A DNA stretch of 64,000 nucleotides, taken from a virus. The stretch is taken from the IMG/VR virus record IMGVR_UViG_3300032214_000715, positions 62,001 to 126,000 of that record. One strand, written 5' to 3'. This document shows positions 32,202-62,060 of this stretch, in pieces. The notes under the pieces are model-generated. The model was not told the origin of the DNA. It worked only from the letters and a program-made list of their open reading frames with translations, and ran no database searches. The position numbers and the translations under genes are program-made. Every line of letters starts with the position of its first letter. Position 1 is the stretch's first letter.

Positions 32202-32807
32202 TCATAATTTCTTACTTGCTAACACGATCTGACAAATATGTTCCAAACGTTCCACATGTTCAAAAGCACGCCACGGACTAGTATCAACCGCAACCACTCC
32301 ATGACGATCAATCCCTACAATATGATTGTCTACAAACCCATTACTCTTCAAGCCCAACGCAGGTATAGTAGCATCTGCTAATTTCTGACTGATGGGCGGA
32401 ACGTCTGTAACATTTGAGCCTACCCTTGTATATCTGCCCAATTCTGGGAATTCTTTAACCAATTCATTTAACTTTATACCAGCGTACATAGCAGCCACTG
32501 TGTAGGTGGGATGTAGATGTAATACTATTCTGACCTCTGTGTCAGTGTGCTTTTGAAGCCCGTAATGTAATGGAATTTCTCCTGACGGTTTTAACGCACT
32601 ACTTAGATCAGTGTAGGGTAGTGCTCTATTTTCGGATATACTCCATTTTATAAACATTTCTGGCTGTAGCGTTTGCTTTCTAATACCACTTGGCGTGATG
32701 TACATATGATCACGATCATGCCAACGAATGCTGGCATTGCCATCTCTGGCAGTAATCCAGTTTCGCTTATATGCTTCTACAAATATTTCGCTAATAGTTT
32801 CTAACAT
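32202..32807 (-). CDS. Class II aldolase/adducin-family protein
   Basis: The 201-residue protein has DGNASIRWHDRDHMYITPSG, the zinc-binding VLHLHPTYTVAAMYAG (H-x-H), and HVERLEHICQIVL, all hallmarks of the AraD/FucA/MtnB family. Substrate unknown. It lies inside the ribonucleotide reductase operon between nrdA and nrdB, so it may be a metabolic gene taken from a host. Confidence 0.85.
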   Translation of the reverse strand: MLETISEIFVEAYKRNWITARDGNASIRWHDRDHMYITPSGIRKQTLQPEMFIKWSISENRALPYTDLSSALKPSGEIPLHYGLQKHTDTEVRIVLHLHPTYTVAAMYAGIKLNELVKEFPELGRYTRVGSNVTDVPPISQKLADATIPALGLKSNGFVDNHIVGIDRHGVVAVDTSPWRAFEHVERLEHICQIVLASKKL

Positions 32808-32816
32808 AATTCTTTC

Positions 32817-34652
32817 TTAAAGTTTGCATGCGATGCAATCCGCATCTTCCTCTTCAACCGGAGGAGTAAATTGTATGACATTCTCTGTCTTGTCTGCCAG
32901 AGCGGCTTTTGCGCCCATCTTGTTGATCAAGCTGTAGTACAGACTCTTACCGCCCCAATGATTGTACAACATTAAGTTCTTAGCAATCAAGGTAGCTGGT
33001 ATCTTGCCGCCTTCAAAATGAGCCGGATTATAGAATGTGTTTGTACTGATACTTTGATCCACGTATGCTGCCAATACTGCTGCTGTTTTTAGATAGTCTA
33101 CACAATCGGTTTGGTCCCACATTAGTTGATAGCGATTCTTTAGACGCTTATAGTCAGGCACTACTTGAACAAATGACCCCGCTTTACTTTCTTTGACACT
33201 GATCAATTCCATTGGCAACTCAATCCCGTTAGTACTGTTCAACACTACTGAACTACTTTCTACCGGAGCGATAGCCATTAATGTGGCGTTACGAATGCCA
33301 CTCTTGAGTAGTCGTGCGCGTAGTGATTCCCAATCTAGCGATGGTGTGAAGTCTGTCAACTCATTGACACCCACTGCGCGGCGCTCCCATGGGAATACAC
33401 CCTTACCATACCACGTATGTTCACTGCGACCACAACTGCCACGTTCCTCCGCCAGTTCAATGCTGGCCTCAGTGAGATAATATGCTTGATGCTCCATCCA
33501 ACGCTTGACTTCAGCAAGTGCTTCTGGTGAACCATACTTCAGACCCCGCTTGGCATGCCAGTATGCTAGATTAGTAATTCCTATGCCTAGCGGTTCAAAA
33601 TCACTGTTAGCTAGTTTACTCTGTACACTCAGGAAATCTTGATAACTCAGTAGACTGCTCAGACTACGAACCAGTGTGCGACAACTCTTACGCATGTCTT
33701 GTGGATTACGGAACGCGCCCCAGTTCTGGCTGCCCAGTGTACATAACGAGATACGCCCATTTTCATCTTCTAGTCTCTGAAATGGTTTTGTTGGAAGAAG
33801 AATCTCAGCACATAGATTTGACATATAAATTGGATCAACCTCTGTGTCAAATGATCCTTGATTGATAACATTGTCAATGTTGACCATATAGATACGACCA
33901 GTGTCTGTGCGCTCTTTTAGTATTCCGTTCTTGAAGATTTCTTCTGCTGATAACACTTTACGTTTCTTTGTAGCATCAGCCTCATACTTAACATAGAGTT
34001 CTTCAAATCGCTGTGTGTTACGATAGTATGCTTCGTACAGGTCTGGCACCTCATGCGGATCAAATAGGGTAATGTTTTCACTGTTCTTATATCTGCGCCA
34101 GAATAACTTGCTAACTACAACACCATAGTCTAACTGTCGGACACGCGTTTCTTCTGTGCCTTGGTTGTTCTTGAGTACAATAAAGTCTTCGAACTGGTAG
34201 TGCCAAATAGGTAGATACACAGTGCAGCTAGCATTCCGAATGCCGCCCTGGCTATTGTGCGTCAATACCATAGGACCATTTTCACAATCGGATGCGAAAA
34301 AAGTATGCTCATCTTCTACTGTTATATCTATATAATTAGTAGAATTTTTTTGGCCCACATCACATGCAAGCAATCTTGTAAAACCATGCTCAGTCAAAAT
34401 TCTATCATTAATAGTCAACTCTTTTGGCTTCTTTTGAGAAAAACCATTTTCCCATACCATAAAAGGATGATTTGTCGAACAATTAATTACCGTACCATTT
34501 TCCAATTCAACCCTCACCTGGTCATGTTCTGGAACAATAGTATTCCATTTATCAGTTACTGTTTTAAAAACGATGTTTCTATTTTCGTCCAGTGTTTTGA
34601 TTTTCATGCCTACTTGGAGGTCTTTTATTTGAATTTTTTTAGTAATCGCCAT
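32817..34652 (-). CDS. nrdA: Split intein C-piece fused to NrdA C-terminal part
   Basis: Residues 1-133 are an intein C-piece: block B NCSTNHPFMVW, block F YIDITVEDEHTFFA, and block G MVLTHN ending in asparagine, then serine as +1. Residues 134-611 are NrdA from SQGGIRNASCTVYLPIWH to the C-terminal CIACKL redox tail. With the N-piece gene (35784-36737) trans-splicing would give a NrdA of about 774 residues, the usual length. No endonuclease domain lies within the intein. Confidence 0.9.
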   Translation of the reverse strand: MAITKKIQIKDLQVGMKIKTLDENRNIVFKTVTDKWNTIVPEHDQVRVELENGTVINCSTNHPFMVWENGFSQKKPKELTINDRILTEHGFTRLLACDVGQKNSTNYIDITVEDEHTFFASDCENGPMVLTHNSQGGIRNASCTVYLPIWHYQFEDFIVLKNNQGTEETRVRQLDYGVVVSKLFWRRYKNSENITLFDPHEVPDLYEAYYRNTQRFEELYVKYEADATKKRKVLSAEEIFKNGILKERTDTGRIYMVNIDNVINQGSFDTEVDPIYMSNLCAEILLPTKPFQRLEDENGRISLCTLGSQNWGAFRNPQDMRKSCRTLVRSLSSLLSYQDFLSVQSKLANSDFEPLGIGITNLAYWHAKRGLKYGSPEALAEVKRWMEHQAYYLTEASIELAEERGSCGRSEHTWYGKGVFPWERRAVGVNELTDFTPSLDWESLRARLLKSGIRNATLMAIAPVESSSVVLNSTNGIELPMELISVKESKAGSFVQVVPDYKRLKNRYQLMWDQTDCVDYLKTAAVLAAYVDQSISTNTFYNPAHFEGGKIPATLIAKNLMLYNHWGGKSLYYSLINKMGAKAALADKTENVIQFTPPVEEEDADCIACKL

Positions 34653-35739
34653 TTTGATGTTGTTCCTTTGTTATCACTTTAATGTCTGGAAATTTTTTTG
34701 ACATATCATGTTGCTTTGCTTTTAATACTGTTTTGCCATTTCTGGTTTTTCTATAATAGATATCCAATAAGTTCTTTGATTTAAAGAATAAATCATCAAC
34801 TATGTAGAAACACTTGGTGGATAAGTTTGCGTAACTTTCGCTATTGGCATAATACTCTTCTGATGAAATTTGCATATTTTTTCTGTGTAGTAATGAATAT
34901 ACCGCAATTCGCTCTTCATTGGGATGTTTGTAAATCGTTGAATCATACTCATCTTTGGATATCATCCGCTTTTCGCCTGTTCTTCTATCAATGGCTTTAA
35001 ATTCACCATGTGTTACTCCCACGTACTCGCTGTCCTCTTTGTAAAATTCTGAAGCATCAACTATAGAAATTTCGCCAGTCTTTTTATTCTTGGCCGAAAC
35101 TTTGCCCGTAGTAATACCAATATATCTCTCGTTTGAATAGAACTCGTCTTTTGGTATTCTTTTGGATTTCCCGGTTATGCTATCAATGCACATCACATAA
35201 TCTTTGAATTCAGTGGTGTGAAGCATGGGATCATAGTCAACGACTTTAATTTTTTTAATTTCTCCTGACTCGGTTCTTATGTTCATCATACCGCTTGATA
35301 TATGTTTGTGATTTCCAGTTGAATATTCTTCAACCGAAACTCTATAAATTGTACCATCATCCGATCTACATAAAGTAGAACCAGCTCCGCAGTTAGTACC
35401 GCCAGCATTTATCACATTGTAAAATAATGGGTTTTTGCCAACATTAAATTTTTCGTGATACGCCTTTTCTGCATCAAAAGCGTCTGCTCTCGTAGAGAAG
35501 TATTCTACATAAATTTTAAATAATTCTGGATTGGTTTTCATTCGATCAACAAAATCAACAACAGTTGAACTAGAAAAATATCTAGAAAGTAAATCATGGG
35601 CATTAGTGCCCTCAACGCCCCTAGATCCAGAATAATATTTACCGTGTATTGTATCATACACTGTATAACAATAATAAATCGAATTTAGCAACATGTTTGT
35701 TTTTTGTCCGCCGTATGTTTCATATAGATATTTTGTCAT
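34639..35739 (-). CDS. GIY-YIG endonuclease lodged between the nrdA halves
   Basis: The start MTKYLYETYGG at 35739 has gagggag before it. YYCYTVYDTIHGKYYSGSRG is the GIY-YIG core, with AFDAEKAYHEKF and NVINAGG later. The C-terminal two thirds have repeated units of about 40 residues (PKDEFYSNERYIG; DASEFYKEDSEYVG; SKDEYDSTIY) that may read DNA. It overlaps the C-piece gene start by 14 bases. This is the fractured-gene layout known from metagenomic split inteins. Confidence 0.88.
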   Translation of the reverse strand: MTKYLYETYGGQKTNMLLNSIYYCYTVYDTIHGKYYSGSRGVEGTNAHDLLSRYFSSSTVVDFVDRMKTNPELFKIYVEYFSTRADAFDAEKAYHEKFNVGKNPLFYNVINAGGTNCGAGSTLCRSDDGTIYRVSVEEYSTGNHKHISSGMMNIRTESGEIKKIKVVDYDPMLHTTEFKDYVMCIDSITGKSKRIPKDEFYSNERYIGITTGKVSAKNKKTGEISIVDASEFYKEDSEYVGVTHGEFKAIDRRTGEKRMISKDEYDSTIYKHPNEERIAVYSLLHRKNMQISSEEYYANSESYANLSTKCFYIVDDLFFKSKNLLDIYYRKTRNGKTVLKAKQHDMSKKFPDIKVITKEQHQNGDY

Positions 35740-35757
35740 TTCGTACTCCCTCATAGT

Positions 35758-35764
35758 TATTTAT
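35758..35764 (-). promoter_or_regulatory. T4-type late promoter before the endonuclease gene
   Basis: ATAAATA about 20 bases before the ATG. Confidence 0.55.
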
Positions 35765-35783
35765 GAAGGGGTACGAAAAACAC

Positions 35784-36737
35784 TCAGATATCGTTGTTTT
35801 TTTTATCTTCTTCGACTAAAACTTCGACCCACGTATCTGGAGTAACACAACAACTACGTAGATCGCCGTACCACTTCTTTAGGAACGGAATCAATCCAGT
35901 GTGCTTTATTTCACCGTTACGAATTGGTGCGCCGACTGGACGAATTCGTCCAATTTCCAATCCGATGCCAGCACGTTTACTAGCATACTTTGCCATCATT
36001 TCACCAGCCGCGAAAATGCTGTCGAGAGTATCGTCTGCGCTAATAAGTACACAACTACTAAACTGCTTAGTAGTAGTGCCAAGACCAGCCAACACAGGTG
36101 TAGCCAGTGTAAAGTGCCCTTCACTAGCACATTCATAATATTCTTTAACATATTTCAATCTTTTTTCTTTTGGTTCCGAGTGAAATGCGGTTGCGGCGGC
36201 GATAGCGTATCGTACTTGCGGAGTTTCGTAGATTTGACCCGTGCTACGATTTTGAACAAGATATTTTTCGCATAGTTGAGCAATTGCCGCATATGTATAC
36301 TTTTCATCTTTACTATGATCAATGAATAGATCAATGATATTCCATTCATCTTGAGTGTACCAATCAAGCAATTCAGGAGTGTATAGTCCCGCTTCTACAT
36401 TTCGTTTAACTATATCATATAGTTTTGGAGGATCATAGTCGTTATACACTTCTTTACGCAACATGCTTACACGCTGTCTGCCGGCCACATATTGATAATT
36501 TACGTTGTTGATTTCTGGATTTTCAGTCTCGTCAATCAAATCCACCATTGCGTTTAATAGCAATTGATCAATTGTTGATGTTTTGATCCCGTCGTGAAAT
36601 TGAATCTGCGCACGTATTTCAATCATACTGGCACTTACACCATCTACCCCGCGACAGGCATGCGCTACTTGTCGTTGAATTTTGGAAATGTCCAACGGAA
36701 CTCTAGCTCCGTCTCGCTTGATAACGTGTATAGTCAT
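35784..36737 (-). CDS. nrdA: NrdA N-terminal part fused to a very short intein N-piece
   Basis: Residues 1-90 form an ATP-cone (HVIKRDGARVPLDISKIQRQ). The redox cysteine region is QFSSCVLISADDTLDS. The extein ends ...YGDLRSC at residue 296. The last 21 residues, CVTPDTWVEVLVEEDKKNND plus I, begin with the intein Cys1 and match block A only. A usual split intein has about 100 residues here, so the break is close to the N-terminus. Confidence 0.92.
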   Translation of the reverse strand: MTIHVIKRDGARVPLDISKIQRQVAHACRGVDGVSASMIEIRAQIQFHDGIKTSTIDQLLLNAMVDLIDETENPEINNVNYQYVAGRQRVSMLRKEVYNDYDPPKLYDIVKRNVEAGLYTPELLDWYTQDEWNIIDLFIDHSKDEKYTYAAIAQLCEKYLVQNRSTGQIYETPQVRYAIAAATAFHSEPKEKRLKYVKEYYECASEGHFTLATPVLAGLGTTTKQFSSCVLISADDTLDSIFAAGEMMAKYASKRAGIGLEIGRIRPVGAPIRNGEIKHTGLIPFLKKWYGDLRSCCVTPDTWVEVLVEEDKKNNDI

Positions 36738-36866: not shown

Positions 36867-38477
36867 TTATGTAACTCTAATGCTCAGACTAGTTTTAGTT
36901 TTAACGCTAGCAAAACACGTATTGGTATTGTTATAGGGAGTAACCCCTACAGCGTAAAATCCAGTTTTAGTGGGGGTTCCAGTAATAGTTACTCTTATAG
37001 ATGGTGGTAAATTTGAAGAAGTCGGAATAGCAGTTACTGTAGCAGTGAGTCCACTAGAGATTAAACGTGTTGTGTCTAAATCAGCCGTGGTTGCGTTTCT
37101 TATATTTACTATTGTATTAAGCGGTACATTGACTCGCGCTTGTATAAGCGTGGCGGACGTATATTGGGGGGCGGGGCAATCGGGTGGAGCTACAACTCCG
37201 CTTCCGGCACTTACATTTGTAACGTTGGCTACTGCTCCTCCGTTTCCTAGATTATTAGTAGCATTGACTAGCACATTCCAAGCCTGATTCGTAGTAGTTG
37301 GAGTTCCAGTTATTGTTAGCACATAATCAGTTGCTTTAATCTTGCTTTTTGCGCCACTAAACGTCATAGTAGAGGGCAGACCAGACGCTATAGTAGCGCT
37401 AGTGGCATTTTGTATAGTGATAGTTCCGGTATAGGGATAGTTTCTTTGAAACACCGAGTTTGTATCACTTTGAGTTTTGCTGTTCTTTGATATTTGTCCT
37501 ACCACTGGGTTTGGAGCCGGAGCGGGCAATACAGTGCCAGCACCCGCTGATTTAGTAGTACTAACAGAGGTACAAGTGGTTAGCGCATTAGTGGCTACAA
37601 TGTTAACATTGTAGCTATTAGAACTTGACAGTCGTGGCATTCCACTAATCGTAAGCAAATAATTAAACCCACTTTTTACTCCAGAATGCGTTATTCCTGA
37701 TGGCCAAGTTGTAGTTCCGGATGAACTTAATACTGGAGTGGCGTTAGTGGCATTTTCAATAATTAAAGTTTCCGAGTACGGAACTCCAACAGTAAAACTG
37801 TTGGTCTGTAAGTTTGGAATAACAGGGGCGATACAACTAACGGGAGTAACCTTACCAGTGTTGATAGATACGTCATCTGTGGCAAAGCCCCCTAGATACT
37901 GCTCCAAACAGCCTGTTCCAGTATTAGTGGCCCTTACTTTGATATTGTAGGATTGATTTCCAGTAGTTGGAACTCCAGCTATTAAAAACGTATAATTTCC
38001 AGAGATGGCAGATTGTGACTGAACCTCAATGCCAGTTGGAAGTCCACTTATAGCTGCGCTAGTAGCATTATTAATTGTAATGCTACTACTAAATTGAGTT
38101 CCAACTGTAAAGACCAGAGTTTTTGTAATAGTTCCAATAGTTGGTCTAGTACATGATGGATAATTAACTGATATACTTCCTGTCCTAGTTGAGCTACATA
38201 AACTAACACTACTTATCGTACAGCCTCGTGGGAAATTACAAGCACTTCCCGTCCAAGTGAAACTACTAGGATTTGCCGGGGCAACTCCAGTGAGCATGTA
38301 CCCCGTTTGCGCGGTCCATTCGAATTTAGCACCAGGAAGAGTAGTATTAAACTGAATTTGAGTTGAAGGGTTAGCTACTACAGGTATACTATATGGCTGA
38401 CCCGGAGTTAGCGGGCCGACTAGTCTAAGACTAACTTGGCCGGCACGAATACAAGGATTATTATTAGAGATAATCAT
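36867..38477 (-). CDS. Ig-like repeat virion protein, 536 aa
   Basis: Built from repeated putative Ig-like units of 80-90 residues with motifs such as SGLPTGIEVQSQS, ITGTPTTTNQAWNV and TVGTQFSSSITINNAT. These are the same kind of unit as in the 2178-residue protein next to it. A decoration, fibre or adhesin role is likely. A late promoter box lies at 38495-38501. Confidence 0.8.
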   Translation of the reverse strand: MIISNNNPCIRAGQVSLRLVGPLTPGQPYSIPVVANPSTQIQFNTTLPGAKFEWTAQTGYMLTGVAPANPSSFTWTGSACNFPRGCTISSVSLCSSTRTGSISVNYPSCTRPTIGTITKTLVFTVGTQFSSSITINNATSAAISGLPTGIEVQSQSAISGNYTFLIAGVPTTGNQSYNIKVRATNTGTGCLEQYLGGFATDDVSINTGKVTPVSCIAPVIPNLQTNSFTVGVPYSETLIIENATNATPVLSSSGTTTWPSGITHSGVKSGFNYLLTISGMPRLSSSNSYNVNIVATNALTTCTSVSTTKSAGAGTVLPAPAPNPVVGQISKNSKTQSDTNSVFQRNYPYTGTITIQNATSATIASGLPSTMTFSGAKSKIKATDYVLTITGTPTTTNQAWNVLVNATNNLGNGGAVANVTNVSAGSGVVAPPDCPAPQYTSATLIQARVNVPLNTIVNIRNATTADLDTTRLISSGLTATVTAIPTSSNLPPSIRVTITGTPTKTGFYAVGVTPYNNTNTCFASVKTKTSLSIRVT

Positions 38478-38494
38478 TAGTTTCCTATAAATGT

Positions 38495-38501
38495 TATTTA
38501 T
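38495..38501 (-). promoter_or_regulatory. T4-type late promoter
   Basis: ATAAATA, lying across the stop of the giant repeat gene. Confidence 0.6.
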
Positions 38502-41500
38502 GCGCCACCAACTTTACCACTTCCGGCTGGAGCTTCTTCCACAATTGCTGTAGTACAAGTGCTACTAAAGTTACTTGCTTTTACTATTAACGAATATGAC
38601 TGTCCGCTGACGGTGGGAGTTCCAGTTAAGGTGATAACATAATTATTGCCTGATTTTGCGCCTGTAGCTTTTATTCCACTAGGGAGTCTATTCTTTAAAA
38701 ATACAAATGACGCTAAGGTGGCATTTGTTACCGTTATACTTCCGTTATATGGAACTCCTTTTACAAACACGTTCGGCGCGACAGTTCCTACTACGGGCGT
38801 AGTACACGCAGGCTGTTTTGCTACAACTCCTGCTCCTACACTGAATTCTGTTATTTGTGCTGCGGCTTTTCCTCCGCCACAAGCATTGGTAGCATTCACA
38901 GTTGCGCCCCACGGTTGATCCTCTGTTGTAGGAGTTCCGCTGAGAGTTAGAACATAATTAGCTCCACTTGGAGCCCCAGTTACTGTTATTCCAGTTGGCA
39001 GTCCGCTTATGGTAGCCACTGTTGCTTTGCTTACGGTTATAGTTACGGGACCGTAAGCCACATTTCGCTGAAAAGCTGACTGCGTTGTAGTCATTTTTGA
39101 CACAGACGGAGTATCACATACTGGGGCAGAGGCAACGATACCGTTTCCTATCTTAACGTCTTTTATTTCTGTGGTGGTTTTTCCACTGCCACAGGCGTTA
39201 GTAGCACTAACTGTAGCACTCCATACTTCAGCAGCATCGGTAGGTGTGCCGCTGATTGTAATTACATAATTACCAGCATTAACAGCTCCAGTCTGCGTGA
39301 TTCCTTTAGGAAGACCAGTGATTGTAGCTGCGGTCGCTTTGCTTACTGTTAGCGTTGCGGGGCCGTATGCTACATTCTTTTGAAACTGAGTGGATGTTAA
39401 CTGGGCAGCAATCGGAGTATCACATTCTGGTGCCGCCGCAACTGTTCCACTTCCAATTTGTATGTCTGATACTTCAGCATCGTCATTTCCGCCTTCACAA
39501 ACATTGGCGGCGCTAGCTTTAATTGTCCAAGAACCAGCAGTAGTTGGAGTGCCACTGATTGTGAGTACATAATTAGAACCGCTAATTGCCCCAGTGGCAG
39601 TAATTCCAGCCGGCATTCCACTTAGTGTGGCAATGGTTGCGTTAGCTATAGTTAGCGTTGTTGTTGTATATGCTACGTTTCTTTGAAATACTGTGTTAGA
39701 CAGTAACGGAATATCTGGAGCAGCGCAGCGCGGTGCCCCGAGTACAGTTCCACTAGCGATTTGTTTATTCAAAAGTTGACCAACAATTCCTCCGCACTCA
39801 TTCTTGGCGCTGATTATAATTGAGTATGTACCCACTGTTGTAGGAGTACCACTCAACGTGTAAGTAACACTTGAAGAAGTAGACGTGACGGTTCCATTAA
39901 TCCCCGGCAATCCATTTATTGTTATTGAAGCGTCCCCGTCCGTTACCGGAGAAATTAATATAGTTACTGGACCGTATGGCACGTTCTTTTGAAATTGTGT
40001 TTGAGCCAGAGTGGTTGTTACTGTTGGAGTGTCACATTGTGGCGCTGCTGCCACTGTTCCATTTCCAATTGATATGTCTTTTACTTCAGCGGTTGTTTTT
40101 CCTTCGCCGCAAGCGTTGGCCGCACTAACCTTTGCCGCCCAAGTACCAGCAGTAGTTGGAGTGCCACTGATTGTGAATACATAATTAGCTCCACTGATTG
40201 CTCCCTCGGCAGTAATGCCAGCTGGTAATCCGGTAACTGTAGCAGTGGTGGCGTTAGTGATGGTTAGAGTTGTTGGTCCATAAGCAGTGCTAACTTGTAG
40301 TGCGGTAGACTGTAGTGTTGGCACCGTTGGAGCAACGCAGAGAGGGGCATCCAAAACTACTCCACTGGAAACCTCAAAATTGTTGATAACCGTTTTTAAT
40401 TTACCAGAGCCGCAATCATTTGTAGCAGTGACTAATATCTTCCAACTTTGCGCTGCGTCAGTTGGCGTGCCGCTGACAGTGAATACATAATTGAGTCCAC
40501 TAACAGCACCCACAGCAGTAACTCCACTGGGTAGCCCACTTAAAGTAGCAGTGGTGGCGTTGTTTATAGTTAGAGTTGTCGGACCATACGCTACATTCTT
40601 TTGAAAAATTGGAGTAGCAAACGCGCTTATTGTTGGGGTAGTACATAGTGGGGCTGGATCTACTTTTCCGCTGCCGGCATTCAAATTACTGACGACGGAA
40701 GTAGTTTTTCCTCCACCACAAGCATTTTCTGCTGCTATCACCATAGCGTATACTTGTCCACTAGTAGTGGGAGTTCCACTTAAGTTAATAACATAGTCAG
40801 CTCCATCAACCGCTCCAGTTTGATTTATACCAGTCGGAATAGTTCCTGTTAATGTTGCTTTTGTGGCATTTTTAACTGTGATTTTTCCCGTATACGCTAT
40901 TTGTTCCACGAACGTATTTGGATCTACTAATATAACTAGTGGGCTAGTACAAATTGGAGCTGCGGTTACAGTTCCAGTTCCCACACTTGACCCTATTATT
41001 GAAGACTTGGTTTTTCCACCGCCGCAATCATTATCGGCACTTACTAATACTTCCCATTTTTGATCGGCAGTTGTAGGGGTACCGCTAACGGTAAATTTGT
41101 AATTGACTCCATCTTGTTGTCCAGTGGCTGCTACTCCAGTTGGAAGTCCACTAATAGTGGCGCCCGTGGCATTAGTGATCGTAATTGTGCCACTATACGC
41201 TACATTTCTTTGAAATGCGGTTGCTCCAAAAGTTAGTGATACACTTGGAACAACACAAAGTGGAGCCGCAGATACCGTACCAGTAAGAACAGTTCTTCTT
41301 GAGGTATTAGTACTACAAGTAGAACCACTATTGGTGGCATCCACTAGTATAGTATATGACTCTATGCTAATAGTAGGTGTACCCGATAACGTTAGTATGT
41401 AATTAGCTCCGTTAGCAGCACCCGTACTGGTAATACCAGTTGGGAGCCCAGTTATAGTAGCGCTAGTAGCATTAGTTATCGTAACAGACCCACTATAAGC

Positions 41501-44500
41501 AACGCTTTTTTGAAATTGAGTTGAACTCAGTGTTCCTATAGATGGAGCGGCACATGGTGGGGCTGCTGCCACTGTTCCTTTACCAATGGGAATATTAGTT
41601 ATCTCACTAGTAGTTTTTCCTCCACCACACGCATTAGTACCGCTTATTGTAGCAGCCCAGGTCTGTGATGCGACCGTAGGAGTTCCACTTAGTGTAAGAA
41701 CGTAACCATTGTCACTGGCCGCACCGGTTACGGTAATGCCAGTTGGAAGTCCGCTGATGGTGGCGATAGTTGCGTTAGGTATCGTTAACGTCGCAGAGTA
41801 TGCTACCGCTGCTTGAAAATTTGTAGAAGAAAGTTGTGAAACAGTTGGTTTAGTACATAGCGGAGCTGGTCGTACTGTTCCGGAACCAGCCGCTAATGTA
41901 GCCGTGGAAGTAGTTTTCCCACCACCACAAGCATTAGTAGCACTTACAGATGCTGTCCACGCCTCTTCTGTTGTAGGAGTTCCGCTGAGTGTTAGTACAT
42001 AATTAGCTCCGCTGACTGCGCCTGTACTAGTAACTCCAGTTGGAAGTCCAGTTATAGTAGCGCTAGTTGCGTTTGATACAGTGATTGTCTCACCAGTCGC
42101 TACATTTTTTTGAAACACTGCTGTCCCTAAACTTGTAGTAGTAGGGGTTGTACAAGCTGGTGGAGGAGCTACTGTCCCAGATCCCAAATAATTATTAGGG
42201 AAAGACAGACTGCTTGACGAATCAACGCAGTTTTTCCCCGAATTTATTGCTTGAATTTTTATGTCGTATGCTTGACCGCTTACCGTAGGAGTTCCACTAA
42301 TAGTGAATACATAGCTGGTTCCACTAGCTGCGCCAGTAGCTGTTATTCCAGTTGGTAGTCCAGTTATAGTAGCTGTAGTTGTGTTTTGTAAACCAATGTA
42401 ACTTGTAAACGCAACGTTGGCTTGAAACTTAAAGACGGTGTAAGTAGATAATGCTGAACTGGAGCAACCAAATCCTGGGGCGGTTCTAGAAACACCTGTT
42501 GATATCGCTTGATCGTTCAGGAAAATAGCATTATCTGGAAAACTGTAGACTTCTACACCGGTGTAGGTCTCCGCAGCGCGACATATCCCAAATTTAGCTG
42601 GAGCGTTGATAGTCATCAATATAGGACCAAATTTTTGATAGGGTAACGTTGGGGTTCCTTGAATACTGAATGCTATATGTTCAGGATAACTAGAATTAGC
42701 TGGCGCCGGACTGATGGTTATTCCCGTTGGTAGCATAGGTATTCCGGCTGCGACACTTGCGGAGCTAGTACTAAATATAGCAGACTCGCCATTAATGTAA
42801 AAAGTATGATTGTACTCAAATTTTTCTCTAAACATTGGCAGCGGGGTGGGCTGAGATTTAATGGGGACACAGGGCGATAAATTAGTCACAGTTCCGCTAC
42901 CAGCACTGATATTGGCAACCGATGATGAAAATTCTTTATCAGCGAGATTATTTTCAGCACTCACCGCTATATTATAGGGTTGACTAGTGGAGGTAGGAGT
43001 TCCACTAAGTGTAAAAATATAATCGCTGCCACTTGCCGCACCTACAGCAGTTATTCCAGCAGGAAGCCCGCTTATAGTAGCACTAGTAGCATTGGTGACT
43101 TTAACAGTTCCTGTATATTTGGTCTCAATTTTAAAAGAATTAGAAGAAATGAAGCCGACCGATGGTTTGGGACTAGTTCGTTCCGCTAACGATTTAGTAA
43201 CAGTACCAGTTCCCGCACTTACGTTAACCAGATTTCTAGGCGGTTCCTGAGTACAAAACTGAGAGGAAGCATTAACTTTAATATCGTATACTTGACCCCC
43301 TTTATTCGGTGTACCAGATAACGTTAGAAGATAATCACGCCCAAATGCCTGACCAGTTACAGTAATTCCACTAGGTAAATTGGCTAAATTTTCTTTTGCT
43401 ATGCCTGCCGTTTGAGCCTGTTTAACAGTAATGCTTCCAGTATACGCAACACCAGAGGCAAAAGCATTTGGACTTACTGTTTGTACATCTGGATCTATAC
43501 ATTTAATATATCCAGTGGCAATTTGAATGGCAGTCGCAGTATTAGTAAAACAAGTGCTACCAGTATTAGTTGCGTCAAATCTAATGTTATACGTGGCTCC
43601 AGGGGGTCCAGAAGCAGTTCCACTAATTGTTATGCGATATCCAGTTCCGAACGGTGTTGAACTTGTTGCTGTAATTCCAATTGGAAGACCATATATTTTT
43701 GGAGCAGAGGTACAGTTGAATACGTCTATCGTGCCTGTATAAGCATCAAATATTCTAAAGTTATTTTCACTTGTAAGAGTCGCAGTTGGTAGTACGCACG
43801 AATCGTACTGAACTGTACCGCTACCCGCTGAGCCACTAATAGTATTAGTTTCAACCCCAGAAACTTCGTTAGTAGCAGTGACTGTAGCTGCCCACGACTC
43901 TCCACCGACTGTGGGTTTTCCAGTAATAGTGAATATGTAACTTGTGCCGCTTCTAACTCCGGTAGCAGTTATTCCAGCTGGGAGTCCAGTTATAGTAGCG
44001 CTAGTAGCATTAGATATCGTCAATGTACTATTGTAGTTAAAATTTGCCTGAAATATAGAGTTGATTTTATCTGGTTGTGATAGTGAGTTAGTCGCTATTT
44101 TTCTTATAGTGGGCGCGGTTGCTTTTTCTTTATTCACAGTCCCAGTTGCCACAGATGTTAATCCGGTACTTGCTTGACCGCATCCACCAGGATTATTAAT
44201 GGCGTTTATTTTAAAATCAAATATTTGTCCACTAGTAGTTGGAGTTCCAAGAAATCTAGCTGTAAAAGTAGTGCCAACTTTTGAGTTGGAACTGTATACA
44301 ACACCAGTTGGTAGTCCAGTAACTGTAATGCCAGTGGCATTTTCTATAGTAACATTTCCAGTGTAATACACACCTTTTTGAAATGTAGTATTATCAAGTG
44401 TTCCAATTGTTGGAGTGGTACATGGAGTTAGTCCTACCTTGCCCGACACCACTAACGTTGGAGACATACCAGAGGCAGCACATCCGCCTGGGCTATTCCC

Positions 44501-45034
44501 GCCAGTTACTGAAATATTGTATGACTGATTAACAGTTGGAGTTCCAGATAGAGTCCAAACATAATTACTTCCGCTTGTCGCTCCAGTTCTATTAATACCA
44601 GTAGGCAGCCCTGAAATTCCACTACTAGTGGCGTTATTTATGGTGATTGTTCCATTAAATGCTTGTCCTAGTATAAAATTTAGCGGAGGACTAACTGTTC
44701 CAATTGATGGAGTCGCGCATGCTGGCGCTCCTACCGTGCCCGAAACTGTTGTTCCTATTTTTCTGTTACACCCAACAGCATCAGCGTTGGTGGCTTCAAA
44801 ATACATTTTGTATTTTTCACCAGAGGTAGTGGGAGTTCCAGCTAATGATATACTTGATCCACTAGTTTGTCTAGTGACTCCAGATACACTTATTCCCGAT
44901 GGCAGCCCTGTCACTGTTATACTAGTCGCGTTACTGAAATAATATGAGCCGGACATATATACGCCCTGTCGCATATTGGTAAATACTCCAGGAACAGTAG
45001 TAGCTGGTGCTGGGTTAACGCATGGAAATGGCAT
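38498..45034 (-). CDS. Giant Ig-like repeat virion protein, 2178 aa
   Basis: About two dozen units of roughly 85 residues follow each other. Each has the pattern QKNVAYGPTTLTISNATTA, TISGLPTGITVTGAASG, and VLTLSGTPTTAG with a C-T-P or C-G-G linker. This resembles putative Ig (He_PIG-like) domains in phage surface proteins, which bind carbohydrates or host surfaces weakly. Units vary from 50 to 95 percent alike by eye, so they may expand and shrink by recombination. No enzymatic domain is seen. Confidence 0.85.
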   Translation of the reverse strand: MPFPCVNPAPATTVPGVFTNMRQGVYMSGSYYFSNATSITVTGLPSGISVSGVTRQTSGSSISLAGTPTTSGEKYKMYFEATNADAVGCNRKIGTTVSGTVGAPACATPSIGTVSPPLNFILGQAFNGTITINNATSSGISGLPTGINRTGATSGSNYVWTLSGTPTVNQSYNISVTGGNSPGGCAASGMSPTLVVSGKVGLTPCTTPTIGTLDNTTFQKGVYYTGNVTIENATGITVTGLPTGVVYSSNSKVGTTFTARFLGTPTTSGQIFDFKINAINNPGGCGQASTGLTSVATGTVNKEKATAPTIRKIATNSLSQPDKINSIFQANFNYNSTLTISNATSATITGLPAGITATGVRSGTSYIFTITGKPTVGGESWAATVTATNEVSGVETNTISGSAGSGTVQYDSCVLPTATLTSENNFRIFDAYTGTIDVFNCTSAPKIYGLPIGITATSSTPFGTGYRITISGTASGPPGATYNIRFDATNTGSTCFTNTATAIQIATGYIKCIDPDVQTVSPNAFASGVAYTGSITVKQAQTAGIAKENLANLPSGITVTGQAFGRDYLLTLSGTPNKGGQVYDIKVNASSQFCTQEPPRNLVNVSAGTGTVTKSLAERTSPKPSVGFISSNSFKIETKYTGTVKVTNATSATISGLPAGITAVGAASGSDYIFTLSGTPTSTSQPYNIAVSAENNLADKEFSSSVANISAGSGTVTNLSPCVPIKSQPTPLPMFREKFEYNHTFYINGESAIFSTSSASVAAGIPMLPTGITISPAPANSSYPEHIAFSIQGTPTLPYQKFGPILMTINAPAKFGICRAAETYTGVEVYSFPDNAIFLNDQAISTGVSRTAPGFGCSSSALSTYTVFKFQANVAFTSYIGLQNTTTATITGLPTGITATGAASGTSYVFTISGTPTVSGQAYDIKIQAINSGKNCVDSSSSLSFPNNYLGSGTVAPPPACTTPTTTSLGTAVFQKNVATGETITVSNATSATITGLPTGVTSTGAVSGANYVLTLSGTPTTEEAWTASVSATNACGGGKTTSTATLAAGSGTVRPAPLCTKPTVSQLSSTNFQAAVAYSATLTIPNATIATISGLPTGITVTGAASDNGYVLTLSGTPTVASQTWAATISGTNACGGGKTTSEITNIPIGKGTVAAAPPCAAPSIGTLSSTQFQKSVAYSGSVTITNATSATITGLPTGITSTGAANGANYILTLSGTPTISIESYTILVDATNSGSTCSTNTSRRTVLTGTVSAAPLCVVPSVSLTFGATAFQRNVAYSGTITITNATGATISGLPTGVAATGQQDGVNYKFTVSGTPTTADQKWEVLVSADNDCGGGKTKSSIIGSSVGTGTVTAAPICTSPLVILVDPNTFVEQIAYTGKITVKNATKATLTGTIPTGINQTGAVDGADYVINLSGTPTTSGQVYAMVIAAENACGGGKTTSVVSNLNAGSGKVDPAPLCTTPTISAFATPIFQKNVAYGPTTLTINNATTATLSGLPSGVTAVGAVSGLNYVFTVSGTPTDAAQSWKILVTATNDCGSGKLKTVINNFEVSSGVVLDAPLCVAPTVPTLQSTALQVSTAYGPTTLTITNATTATVTGLPAGITAEGAISGANYVFTISGTPTTAGTWAAKVSAANACGEGKTTAEVKDISIGNGTVAAAPQCDTPTVTTTLAQTQFQKNVPYGPVTILISPVTDGDASITINGLPGINGTVTSTSSSVTYTLSGTPTTVGTYSIIISAKNECGGIVGQLLNKQIASGTVLGAPRCAAPDIPLLSNTVFQRNVAYTTTTLTIANATIATLSGMPAGITATGAISGSNYVLTISGTPTTAGSWTIKASAANVCEGGNDDAEVSDIQIGSGTVAAAPECDTPIAAQLTSTQFQKNVAYGPATLTVSKATAATITGLPKGITQTGAVNAGNYVITISGTPTDAAEVWSATVSATNACGSGKTTTEIKDVKIGNGIVASAPVCDTPSVSKMTTTQSAFQRNVAYGPVTITVSKATVATISGLPTGITVTGAPSGANYVLTLSGTPTTEDQPWGATVNATNACGGGKAAAQITEFSVGAGVVAKQPACTTPVVGTVAPNVFVKGVPYNGSITVTNATLASFVFLKNRLPSGIKATGAKSGNNYVITLTGTPTVSGQSYSLIVKASNFSSTCTTAIVEEAPAGSGKVGGA

Positions 45035-55277: not shown

Positions 55278-58200
55278 TTATGCTCCGCCTATCTCTCCAG
55301 TGTTGAGCAGACGAACCGGAACGTAGATGAATTCAACTGCCTTAGCTGGCTCAATTGCTATATCAATCCACAATTCATTTCTATCTATGCGTGCGGGAGT
55401 ATTATTACTCTCATCACATACCACTACGTAGTCATAGATTCCTCGTTTAGACAATATGTCGGCCATTAATGTCTGTACTACGCCGCGTGCTTCGTTACGA
55501 GTGATAGTATCATTCGGCTCAAATATAAACGGACGTAATGCTCGCTGTAACTGATAACGAATATAGCACACTAATCTAGCCACGTTTGTTCTATCAAGTG
55601 AACTTTGACTATCAAAGCTGTTTTTATTACCGTAGTTTAATATTCCTAGATTGGTGAAATAAGAAATTGGGTTGATAAAGTTTGTATATTCAATATCACG
55701 TAGAGCAACACGATTCTTTGTTACCGTAAACTCACCTGTAGCGGCATCAATATAACCGATGTTACTTGCGTTATCAACTATACCACGACGCTGACCAGCG
55801 GGCGCAAACCAAGGATAAGCAACATTATCGCTGTAAATCATAGTACGTAGTATCATATGACTAGCAGGAACAGTTACTTCAGCCCCAGTTAAGTCGGTTG
55901 TGATTCCACTTGGGTAGTATAGACCCATATAAGTGTTACGAGTTACTAGACCGTCTTCGCCTGTGCCACTAGCGTTAGAGGCGTTTGTAGCCCAGTTGAC
56001 TATTGCGTTGGCATCAGCGGGTAATCTTAATGGAGTGTCGCCTATTACATAAGCAGTTTGTCCACGATCATTATTTAATGTTACCATATCTGGCTGTAGC
56101 TCAGGGTATCCGCAAGCAGCTATTAGATTAATAAATGTGTCTTCTTCACGTATTTGTGTGTTAACATTTATTGCGTTCTTTAGCGCTTGTACTACCATAT
56201 GTCTTTGCGCCTTACGACCCATATATGGAGATCCATTATTTTTCAATCCACTTACCGACACCCAAGTATTTCGTTGAGCTGGAATTGTTCCAGAAAAATC
56301 AGCACTATTAAAGTAGTTAGTGCGATATTCCTTTACATTGTATCCACTACGACGAGTGTTAAACAGTAGTGTTCCACGTGGGTATAGTGTTGGATCTGGA
56401 GCGTCCAAGTCTACGTAGTCACTTAATAATAGACCAGCGATTGACGGGAAGGCACTAGTAACTGGATCTGTGCTTCCGTTAGAAGCCCAACGTGCGTCCG
56501 CGAATACTACACCGTTTTCGCTTGTTTGATCGGTGTTATCAATACGAACCCATTGATTTACTTGACCAACTGCTTGCCAGCGATTTATTACAGGATAATT
56601 TTCCAAATCACTAGTATCAATCCATAAATCTCCAAATTGTAATGGCAGACCAGCGGAATTTGTGGTCGGAGCAATCGGAGAAATAAGCGGACCGCTAGTA
56701 TCAGTTTGTGGAGTGCCAGTTGATTTTGGAAGTCCGTTAGCTGCGTAAGCAACGTTACGATATCCGCGCCACTGTCCGCCAACGTTAGTCATGATATCAA
56801 CTTGATTTACGCTACTGTAATACCACTGAGTTCCATTTAGTGGGTATTGAGTAGGAACTATTTCGTTAGGGATATAAGCTACTATTCTCCAATCACTTAG
56901 TTGTACCGTATACTGTGGAGTTGCGAATCCGCTTAGCCATCTTACTTGTTCAATACCACCGTCATCATCAACCGCAGTAACTTCTATTTGATATGAACCG
57001 TTTAGTGGGGAGGCTTCAGTAATAGTAAGAGCGGCACCGACTACGTATCCGTCTCCAGGGGCTGTTACTGTAAAAGAGGGTATATATCCAGTAGTTTGTA
57101 CTTGAAATAGTGCCTCGCCTGAATTTACCTCTATGTCGGAGTATGTAACAGTCTTATAAGGACCCCATTTTGCGCCCGGAGTAACTTCGCTTACAAAACC
57201 AAGCTGAGTTAGTAAAGAGCTTTGCCCGTCAAGTATAATAACTCCACCCTCGGTATGCTCTAGCACAATTGCTCCAGCAGTAGATACAGATGCCTTTGTG
57301 TAATCAATATTGGCAGCAGTCCAAGCGGCCACAAAAGCACTAGCATCTTGTGTTGCTGGACTACTTGGCATAACTATTTCGTATTCATCACTTAGTGCGT
57401 TGCTACTTGGAAAGCTAACTCTAACCTTAAGAGTTGCACCCGCTGATATTGCGGGACTAGCTACTGTGCCGACAAACAGTGATGAGCCGCTTGAGAATCT
57501 GCGATACACTTGAAGTGGTCCTACAAAGTTGGTAGGATTAGTGTTGTACTGAGCGTAAAGTGAACCCTCTGTAATATTTCTTCCACCAGAACTGTCTAAT
57601 GTACTGTTAATAGTCCAATCGTTAGTACTCATCGGAGCGGATACTGATACGAATGACCCTAATGCCGCACTGTATTGATTGAATACTAGATTTGTTCCGG
57701 CATTGGCTGAGTTGGTTTTAATCCAAACACTGCCTGTTGGGCGAGGCTGACTGTCCGAACTTCTCCATAGTGGTTGTTGAGCGTTAGTTCCAAATAGCAC
57801 CTGTGGTGAATTGTAAGTGCCGCTTCCAATTCCTATTTCTGTAAGAACAGTATTTGAACCAACAGGAGCAATTATTATGGCTTGATCCACTTCACTGTAA
57901 ATCTCCAATCTTCCACCAACAGCAGCAGCAGAAACAAATGGAACGTTTGCCTCTTCAATCAAGTCAACAAGTTCACCTAGTGTGTTAGCTGGAGCAGCTG
58001 GAATAGTAATGGTGGTACCATTTATAGAGAACGCAGCTCCAGCTGTTAATGAAGTCACTACCTGTGATCCTTGAATGGTAGGCCAATTATTTCTCCACTC
58101 GGAACCACCTACGGAAACCCACTGATTATTTTTTGCTTTATACCAGTATGTGTGATATGTGTCTGGATTATCAGCTAGTGTAAGATTAGCTGTATTGGTC

Positions 58201-58778
58201 TTCATAGAAATAGCGTAGTCACCAATATTTCCAATAGCAGAAGATGGGCGACCAGATGGGGCATCAGCCATATCACTAGTTTCCATTACAATTAGTGGAG
58301 TCTTGTTAATGAAGTTTCCAGTTACCTGATCAAATTCAAAAATTCCCCAAGTAGTATTTGTTGTATCTAGCCAGTATGTTCCGTCGCTTACGTCAGCCGC
58401 GGGTCTGGTAGTTCTACCCACTAATGATGCCAAATCAATATCGGCACGTAGCACATAGCATAAATTGGTAAGACCCAATACGCTATAGGCGGCCATTAAA
58501 CCGTATTCATTTAACTCATAACCTTGAATGGGTGTACCATTTGTGGTCTTGTAAAAGAATGGATTTCCAAATAGAGTAGTCAAGTCTCGCTGACTAGTTA
58601 CTCTGTATAACTTGTTGGCATTAGCAGCAATAGTGCCAGTCGCTACTCCCGTTCCCGCCGCATTTGATTTATTTTGAGCAGTTGCTAAAACAATAAGAGG
58701 AACTGATGCCGGTGCTGCCGGTAAATATTGACTCTCGTCAACTATGCTTACTTGTACGCCTGGACTGTTTAGTGCCAT
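55278..58778 (-). CDS. gp18: Contractile tail sheath protein (gp18-like), 1166 aa
   Basis: The N-terminus (ALNSPGVQVSIVDESQYLPA) and C-terminus (SKRGIYDYVVVCDESNNTPA; IDIAIEPAKAVEFIYVPVRL) are typical of T4-like sheath proteins. At 1166 residues it is far longer than T4 gp18 (659). The middle has inserted, partly repeated domains (PTGSVWIKTNSANAG; PLQFGDLWIDTSD) which probably sit on the outside of the tail. Confidence 0.93.
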   Translation of the reverse strand: MALNSPGVQVSIVDESQYLPAAPASVPLIVLATAQNKSNAAGTGVATGTIAANANKLYRVTSQRDLTTLFGNPFFYKTTNGTPIQGYELNEYGLMAAYSVLGLTNLCYVLRADIDLASLVGRTTRPAADVSDGTYWLDTTNTTWGIFEFDQVTGNFINKTPLIVMETSDMADAPSGRPSSAIGNIGDYAISMKTNTANLTLADNPDTYHTYWYKAKNNQWVSVGGSEWRNNWPTIQGSQVVTSLTAGAAFSINGTTITIPAAPANTLGELVDLIEEANVPFVSAAAVGGRLEIYSEVDQAIIIAPVGSNTVLTEIGIGSGTYNSPQVLFGTNAQQPLWRSSDSQPRPTGSVWIKTNSANAGTNLVFNQYSAALGSFVSVSAPMSTNDWTINSTLDSSGGRNITEGSLYAQYNTNPTNFVGPLQVYRRFSSGSSLFVGTVASPAISAGATLKVRVSFPSSNALSDEYEIVMPSSPATQDASAFVAAWTAANIDYTKASVSTAGAIVLEHTEGGVIILDGQSSLLTQLGFVSEVTPGAKWGPYKTVTYSDIEVNSGEALFQVQTTGYIPSFTVTAPGDGYVVGAALTITEASPLNGSYQIEVTAVDDDGGIEQVRWLSGFATPQYTVQLSDWRIVAYIPNEIVPTQYPLNGTQWYYSSVNQVDIMTNVGGQWRGYRNVAYAANGLPKSTGTPQTDTSGPLISPIAPTTNSAGLPLQFGDLWIDTSDLENYPVINRWQAVGQVNQWVRIDNTDQTSENGVVFADARWASNGSTDPVTSAFPSIAGLLLSDYVDLDAPDPTLYPRGTLLFNTRRSGYNVKEYRTNYFNSADFSGTIPAQRNTWVSVSGLKNNGSPYMGRKAQRHMVVQALKNAINVNTQIREEDTFINLIAACGYPELQPDMVTLNNDRGQTAYVIGDTPLRLPADANAIVNWATNASNASGTGEDGLVTRNTYMGLYYPSGITTDLTGAEVTVPASHMILRTMIYSDNVAYPWFAPAGQRRGIVDNASNIGYIDAATGEFTVTKNRVALRDIEYTNFINPISYFTNLGILNYGNKNSFDSQSSLDRTNVARLVCYIRYQLQRALRPFIFEPNDTITRNEARGVVQTLMADILSKRGIYDYVVVCDESNNTPARIDRNELWIDIAIEPAKAVEFIYVPVRLLNTGEIGGA

Positions 58779-61622: not shown

Positions 61623-62060
61623 TTAGTTAGCTACAATACGATTTACTCTTACGTAAGTAGCATCAAAAATATCGGTCTTAACCACGCCGTAATCGTTCGC
61701 TTCATGACGAACGATATAATCGTTAGCGGTGGTGTAGTAGAGATTCTGTGGACCACTGCCCCAGTTAACTACTACATGCCCGTCGTGATCGGCTAGTTTA
61801 GCTAGCTTGACGATCTTTACTGGACGACATTCTCCATTACCCAAGTCTTCTTTTGTATTCTTAAAAGTTTCTGGGCTCACGATCCAACGTTCGTTCTTAA
61901 CTCCAGTAAGAATATAATCACCTACACCATACGGCACTGGATTTGGATTTTCAAGCGATACTAATGTTCCAGCTTCAGTTGCGATTTCATATCGCTCAAC
62001 ACGATCTTGCCTTTTATAACACTCAAAAGAATTTGAGTCAAACCACGATTCATCAATCAT
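61623..62060 (-). CDS. PGDYI-type conserved phage protein, 145 aa
   Basis: Contains VPYGVGDYILTGVKNERWIV and SPETFKNTKEDL, a pattern found in a widespread phage family (GDYIV-TG...W/YPI-P..F...Y) of unknown function. It lies 6 bases after the MazG-like gene. Confidence 0.7.
   Translation of the reverse strand: MIDESWFDSNSFECYKRQDRVERYEIATEAGTLVSLENPNPVPYGVGDYILTGVKNERWIVSPETFKNTKEDLGNGECRPVKIVKLAKLADHDGHVVVNWGSGPQNLYYTTANDYIVRHEANDYGVVKTDIFDATYVRVNRIVAN

Follow-up and report, generated by a model that had tools for sequence, protein, structure and literature searches.

Layout of the split nrdA locus

The window analysed here, a 64,000-nucleotide stretch (positions 62,001 to 126,000) of the 239-kb IMG/VR virus record IMGVR_UViG_3300032214_000715, carries on its minus strand a ribonucleotide reductase gene, nrdA, in two pieces: the first ends in the short N-terminal fragment of an intein (Int-N), the second begins with the long C-terminal fragment (Int-C), and a candidate homing endonuclease gene (HEG-A) fills the gap between the halves. 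Read along that strand, the order is nrdA-N, the 371-codon open reading frame (ORF) of HEG-A, nrdA-C, a class II aldolase-like gene and nrdB. The parts of the split gene are the following.

35784..36737, minus strand: nrdA-N gene, 317 amino acids (aa), N-extein residues 1-296 followed by Int-N; Pfam ATP-cone, Ribonuc_red_lgN and the start of lgC
35787..35849, minus strand: Int-N, 21 aa (CVTPDTWVEVLVEEDKKNNDI), block A / first strand, then a charged tail, then the stop
34639..35754, minus strand: HEG-A ORF, 371 codons; the likely start is the second ATG, at 35739, giving 366 aa
32817..34652, minus strand: nrdA-C gene, 611 aa, Int-C followed by the C-extein; Pfam Ribonuc_red_lgC, 2.7e-89
34254..34652, minus strand: Int-C, 133 aa (MAITKKIQIKD...VLTHN), with blocks B (CSTNHP), F (YIDITVEDEHTFF) and G (VLTHN), then Ser+1
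32820..34253, minus strand: C-extein of NrdA, 478 aa, beginning SQGGIRNAS at E. coli position 293; rest of the barrel and C-terminal Cys pair

The N-extein contains the ATP-cone, the all-alpha domain and the start of the barrel, and the HEG-A ORF overlaps the start of nrdA-C by 14 bp. A sequence-only reading of this stretch had placed the element at 34254-35849, with 21 intein residues ending the N-terminal gene and 133 opening the C-terminal one; by the ORF positions of Int-N and Int-C, the coordinates and both lengths are exact. It had also raised the worry that a sequencing error hides one continuous frame, and the locus does come from a metagenomic record on a single contig. This is contradicted by a second IMG/VR assembly, identical to the window locus over 12.4 kb. 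Since the three-gene layout moreover recurs in many diverged contigs and in the isolate Acinetobacter phage KARL-1, sequencing error is ruled out, and an artefact of sequencing or assembly concealing a single frame has next to no probability.

The intein halves and their place in NrdA

At the sequence level the two fragments together hold the features of a class 1 intein (HINT), i.e., Cys1 with block A, the block B His, blocks F and G, the terminal His-Asn and Ser+1. The earlier description of a split intein with a very short N-piece, whose C-piece contains blocks B, F and G and ends HN-S, is thereby confirmed: 21 and 133 residues in separate ORFs, with the catalytic positions intact. The halves are not due to chance: the first 10 residues of the Int-N tail (CVTPDTWVEV) are identical to the start of a contiguous intein in the relative L009, and models of inteins pick up Int-C (Pfam Intein_splicing, 3.5e-7, 30.6 bits). 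With inteins that other phages carry at this nrdA site Int-C shares 41-71% identity, and the window halves align end to end with the contiguous mini-inteins of Shewanella phage Thanatos-2 and Vibrio phage SUMAE, as well as with the split intein of KARL-1. Cys1 is invariant across the intein family, the block B His in 21 sequences; block F and the terminal His-Asn (VLTHN^S) are kept throughout the compared family, and the catalytic intein residues are all retained across more than 30 diverged members. The ratio of nonsynonymous to synonymous change (dN/dS) is about 0.1 for Int-C, which by this measure is under purifying selection, and amino-acid change in Int-N is almost nil. A group I intron was considered and rejected, the halves being a translated intein with catalytic residues.

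The HINT fold was modelled with AlphaFold2 (AF2) on a re-fused relative, L048, a family member at most 85% identical whose contiguous form served as a stand-in for the two chains of the window (predicted local distance difference test, pLDDT, 90.5). Searched against the PDB, this model gives 63 matches at E<=0.001, nearly all to inteins or Hint domains (top E 1e-7) and including the NpuDnaB, NrdJ-1, gp41-1 and VidaL inteins (E about 1e-7 to 5e-6), and its sole internal low-confidence loop, residues 17-20, lies where the split members break. The Int-N tails of split members are acidic (net charge -1 to -7, -2 in the window) and their Int-C heads basic (M.KTKK), a combination present in 17 of the 18 split members compared, the exception being KARL-1, which has no tail. 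Electrostatic docking of the Int-N tail on the Int-C head is a reasonable inference from these sequences, although the charges may predate the split, since contiguous members such as L051 have an acidic linker followed by TKK.

Excision of the intein gives a predicted LRSC^SQGGIR junction. A search for intact NrdA in related phages, proposed in the sequence-only reading as a check on its RSC-SQGG junction, was run and indicates that the junction is native: the best intein-less relatives are uninterrupted across it in 80 of 80 cases, and 79 of them read LRSC^SQGGIR. Aligned to the solved E. coli NrdA, nrdA-N covers residues 6-292 and the extein of nrdA-C begins at 293, with Cys292 as the last residue of the N-extein and Ser293 as the first of the C-extein. 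The possibility that the junction Cys is the catalytic Cys225 was rejected, as the alignment gives Cys292 and Cys225 sits in QFSSCVLI within the N-piece. The extein keeps Cys225 on the N-piece and Cys439, Glu441 and Cys462 on the C-piece (which we take to be the catalytic residues of NrdA), together with both tyrosines and the C-terminal Cys pair.

Residues 292-301 of E. coli NrdA form specificity loop 2, in which Cys292, Ser293 and Gln294 read the effector base and relay it to the active site (PMC4728125). Because the break falls between 292 and 293, inside this loop, the precursor is interrupted in its substrate-specificity loop and, unspliced, should fail normal substrate selection; splicing could gate the supply of deoxynucleoside triphosphates (dNTPs) during infection.

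It is very improbable that the locus is a decaying nrdA, i.e., a broken dead gene with its debris. Degeneration has been proposed for a Campylobacter phage nrdA that carries several inteins (PMC3653736); however, in the window the key extein residues are present, amino-acid divergence of the extein is low where silent sites are saturated, and the neighbouring nrdB is intact. Also improbable are genes in pieces that work without splicing, the intein halves being inactive relics and the NrdA pieces acting as a non-covalent complex. This has a precedent in Aeromonas phage Aeh1, whose NrdA is split by mobE and functional (as cited in PMC10448857 and PMC2988022), but it does not fit the retention of the catalytic intein residues in so many diverged members or the purifying selection on Int-C. 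Moreover, loop 2 would have to carry 154 extra residues, and the re-fused contiguous inteins (L045, L048) could not act in this way. Trans-splicing is preferred instead: the phage would make NrdA as two precursors, the 21-residue Int-N would dock onto the 133-residue Int-C, and the joined halves would rebuild a class 1 HINT intein with Cys1, the block B His, the block G His-Asn and Ser+1, whose trans-splicing would yield a single NrdA of 774 residues, without a scar at the junction (...LRSC-SQGGIR...).

The nuclease gene and transfer of the cassette

In HEG-A, the motif residues Y27-Y28, Y41-S-G43, E96 and N113 are invariant in 12 members, and the N-domain of its AF2 model has the order strand-strand-helix-helix-strand-helix. 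Against the viral structure library BFVD (Foldseek) the model retrieves a GIY-YIG protein at E=2e-13 and many weaker GIY-YIG matches; the conserved motifs and this match uphold the earlier proposal of a GIY-YIG gene in the gap. Its dN/dS of 0.09-0.16 indicates that HEG-A is maintained by selection, and within reach of the pattern-based scan it is found only between the halves of this intein.

Surveys of IMG/VR (two scans with Int-C, one with the nuclease) gave 39 contigs besides the window in which nrdA is interrupted at this position by an intein of the family, and five phage isolates carry one at the same site (KARL-1, Thanatos-1, Thanatos-2, SUMAE and VPALA). The intein is split with HEG-A in 24 contigs and the window, with HEG-B (DUF7487/phrog_3339) in 2 contigs and KARL-1, with HEG-C in 3 contigs (L044, L046, L050) and without an intact nuclease in 3; it is apparently re-fused in 2 and contiguous in 5, all contig counts including near-identical assemblies and not representing independent events. 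HEG-C, of 920 or 540 aa, has DUF7487 and a weak MTES_1575 restriction-enzyme-like match, and in L044 and L050 we presume that it may be the Vsr-like nuclease family of Dassa et al. 2009. In most members the split falls in one and the same flexible loop, behind residue ~12. No relatives of Int-C were found in bacterial or archaeal genomes.

The cassette moves as one unit, since cassettes 96-99% identical sit in nrdA flanks that are only about 75-80% identical. Between L033 and L035 the Int-N/HEG-A/Int-C cassette is 98-99% identical and the nrdA flanks about 79%, with silent sites saturated (proportion of silent differences, pS, 0.81), and the level of identity changes some 15-25 bp from either end of the intein; the pair L021 and L025 follows the same pattern (cassette 96%, flanks about 75%). 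Likewise, L031 has the NrdA closest to that of the window (83%) and a cassette from another NrdA lineage, its nuclease sharing 85% identity with the L020 nuclease as against 57% with the window's. Distances of HEG and Int-C correlate at 0.87, as against 0.38 for HEG and 0.62 for Int-C with the N-extein, in a comparison leaving out the two most divergent loci. Judged from these identities and distances, the cassette travels as a unit and independently of its host nrdA gene.

A nuclease that is a mere parasite of the intein, attacking contiguous intein genes at their loop and so splitting them without mobilising the intein, is unlikely. At least three nuclease types (HEG-A, HEG-B and HEG-C) occupy the one loop position, as would be expected of a tolerant landing site, and some inteins at the site are contiguous and have no nuclease (L009, L011, L051, Thanatos and SUMAE); however, the identity tracts of recent transfers stop at both intein ends and not at random distances from the loop, which fits intein-less recipients, and the HEG/Int-C correlation exceeds that of either with the N-extein.

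The leader of HEG-A holds the following putative expression signals, which the sequence-only reading had not noted.

35739..35778, minus strand: RNA hairpin, arms TTTCGTACCCC...GGGAGTACGAAA; the 3' arm holds the ribosome-binding site and reaches the likely nuclease start codon
35758..35765, minus strand: late-promoter-like box CATAAATA, in the hairpin loop, 18 bp upstream of the likely nuclease start codon

Over 10 distinct sequences 92.7% of hairpin cells are paired and three pairs have changed on both sides, the covariation score exceeding all 500 shuffles and all slid controls; shuffling does not take away the relatedness of the sequences, but sliding does preserve it. Of the 10 CATAAATA sites in the window, 6 stand 5-19 bp ahead of an ORF start on their own strand, compared with 7% for permuted motifs (binomial about 2e-5). 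The box is enriched 17-19 bp before late genes of this phage, and it stands 19 bp ahead of the head-tail adaptor gene and of the endolysin gene. The canonical T4 late box TATAAATA is not enriched in the window and never precedes its ORF starts. Counted over the whole genome, CATAAATA shows no excess over the reversed pattern, so that it is the position of the box that carries the promoter claim. In I-TevI, I-TevII, I-TevIII, segB and Aeh1 mobE a hairpin blocks translation of the early mRNA, and a late promoter yields an mRNA too short to form it (PMC2988022). The HEG-A leader resembles this T4 I-TevI-type and Aeh1 mobE regulation, with a hairpin sequestering the ribosome-binding site and a late-promoter-like box, and by this analogy we infer that HEG-A is expressed late.

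The locus is very probably a mobile split intein that rebuilds NrdA and whose nuclease homes the whole cassette, HEG-A being made mainly late by way of the hairpin and late promoter. On early read-through mRNA the ribosome site of HEG-A would be hidden in the hairpin, and the late promoter inside the hairpin would produce an open mRNA from which HEG-A would mainly be made; the nuclease would then cut the intein-less nrdA of co-infecting phages, and repair would copy the entire Int-N / nuclease / Int-C cassette into the cut gene. Several observations weigh against this reading. Pfam does not reach the GIY-YIG assignment, giving no usable match for HEG-A, alone or over 12 members, and the HEG-A model has no significant match in the PDB (Foldseek), where the best GIY-YIG one is UvrC 1ycz at E=1. 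The 30.6 bits of Int-C lie under the curated Pfam cut-off of 35.8, as is expected of a split mini-intein when a single protein holds just its Int-C part, the cut-off not being a biochemical criterion. Finally, for the cassette of the window itself there is no very close relative with a diverged nrdA, so that its recent movement is deduced from its siblings.

As to the neighbourhood, the class II aldolase/adducin-like gene between nrdA-C and nrdB lies at window 32202-32807 (Pfam 3.3e-27), and just upstream of nrdA-N (window 36867-45034) two long repetitive Ig-like proteins of 536 and 2178 aa are encoded, the former having no PHROG match and a CATAAATA box 17 bp ahead of its start. The tail sheath protein (window 55278-58778, phrog_10581) is unusually long, at 1166 aa.

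Variation within the family and relation to known systems

Int-N length in the family ranges from 12 aa in KARL-1 (L004:3080-3115, CLTPDTKVEILV) to about 25 aa, with 21 aa in the window. The intein precedes the Cys292 codon (Cys+1) in Thanatos and KARL-1 (L003, L004) and follows it (Ser+1) in the window and all others, a shift of the insertion point by one codon within one intein family that leaves the spliced product unchanged. Sister phages with the same neighbourhood can carry different intein alleles at the same site (CVTPDTWVEV in L009 and L010, CLRPDMYVEV in L011). The gene is a multiple target: NrdA is further interrupted about 150-175 residues into the C-extein, in some cases clearly by additional inteins, in L011, L012, L014, L016, L019-L027, L034, L035, L044, L047, L048 and L051.

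In five contigs (L021-L024, L037; e.g., L021:7097-9100) NrdA is divided among three genes. The middle one reads Int-C1-SQGGIRNA-Int-N2 (61 aa) and is followed by a 313-codon ORF, HNH nuclease-like by eye and without Pfam support, and then by Int-C2-SATVFYP. The middle extein, SQGGIRNA, has 8 residues corresponding to E. coli 293-300, most of loop 2, and by this arrangement the NrdA of these phages would need two trans-splicing events.

Other alleles have lost the nuclease or closed the gap. In L008 a remnant of about 46 codons from the 3' end of HEG-A, detached from any nuclease, still lies between the halves; L040 and L049 have kept only about the last dozen, adjoining the nrdA-C start. L048 is a single open frame (CVTPETWVEVIDEGDSDE-MEKTKKIQIKD) in which two marks of an earlier split survive, the acidic tail of Int-N and the Met-Xaa-Lys-Thr-Lys-Lys with which a formerly independent Int-C gene began; it clusters with the split L031 (support 100/99); L045 resembles it without the Met. 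The simplest reading of both sequences is re-fusion of a split intein, although for L045 insertion of a nuclease into a pre-existing acidic linker keeps some likelihood as an alternative. The re-fused and nuclease-less alleles nest with split ones in a supported clade (98/98). As the Int-C-only tree resolves few branches (4 of 24 starred), only this nesting is drawn from it and no number of splits, gains or losses is claimed. A full natural cycle is somewhat more likely than not, in which a contiguous mini-intein is fractured by a nuclease of one of at least three types, the split cassette homes into intein-less genes, the nuclease is lost and the halves are re-fused, with some phages carrying two tandem split inteins and assembling NrdA from three proteins by two trans-splicing events around the 8-residue SQGGIRNA.

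The family provides more than 30 natural split members that break at the position known from engineered inteins as 'S1', among them KARL-1 with its 12-aa Int-N; peptide-based protein labelling has a use for such short Int-N pieces. With near-identical cassettes sitting in diverged genes, homing of a split intein can be put to a direct test, and the relic and re-fused alleles suggest that a split is reversible.

In the fractured genes of Dassa et al. 2009, split intein halves reportedly flank a free homing endonuclease gene. The comparison made in the sequence-only reading with this fractured-gene arrangement holds, as HEG-A lies between intein-bearing pieces and intein-less alleles with the native junction exist; the arrangement is that of a widespread mobile family beyond a single locus. 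The N-piece had further been called extremely short; at 21 aa it is short but lies within the published range of 15-25 aa for atypically split inteins (PMC10189870, PMC11923092). AceL TerL (Int-N 25 aa), GOS TerL (37 aa) and PolB16 OarG (15 aa, the shortest characterised natural Int-N by 2023; PMC10189870) resemble the window in their natural split after the first strand, with a short Int-N and a long Int-C in separate genes of metagenomic phage-like sources, but their exteins are TerL and PolB, whereas the window has NrdA loop 2, Cys1/Ser+1 and 21 aa. The KARL-1 Int-N, at 12 aa, is shorter than the shortest of these and would be the shortest natural one that we know of; an engineered Ssp DnaX S1 intein with an 11-aa Int-N splices (PMC11766414).

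The AceL NrdHF split intein likewise fractures a ribonucleotide reductase gene of a phage, and a nuclease gene of GIY-YIG type fills the gap there; this intein differs in interrupting the small-subunit gene, in its class 3 chemistry and in its split at the usual place, into 98 + 48 aa (PMC7891396). For ocean (GOS) metagenomes, 7 cases of intein-interrupted nrdA from Dassa et al. 2009 are cited in PMC3653736. Another close system is nrdA of KARL-1 (MH713599), with the same intein family, the same loop split, a nuclease gene between the halves and an otherwise unbroken NrdA; it differs in its 12-aa Int-N, its other nuclease (DUF7487/phrog_3339) and its insertion one codon earlier (Cys+1), and the KARL-1 genome paper does not mention inteins or nrdA. 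Aeh1 nrdA also has a nuclease gene (mobE) inside it, but is described as working as two peptides; this genes-in-pieces type of ribonucleotide reductase has no intein, whereas the window has complete and conserved intein halves. The window locus itself is of a known type; what is unusual is the family around it.

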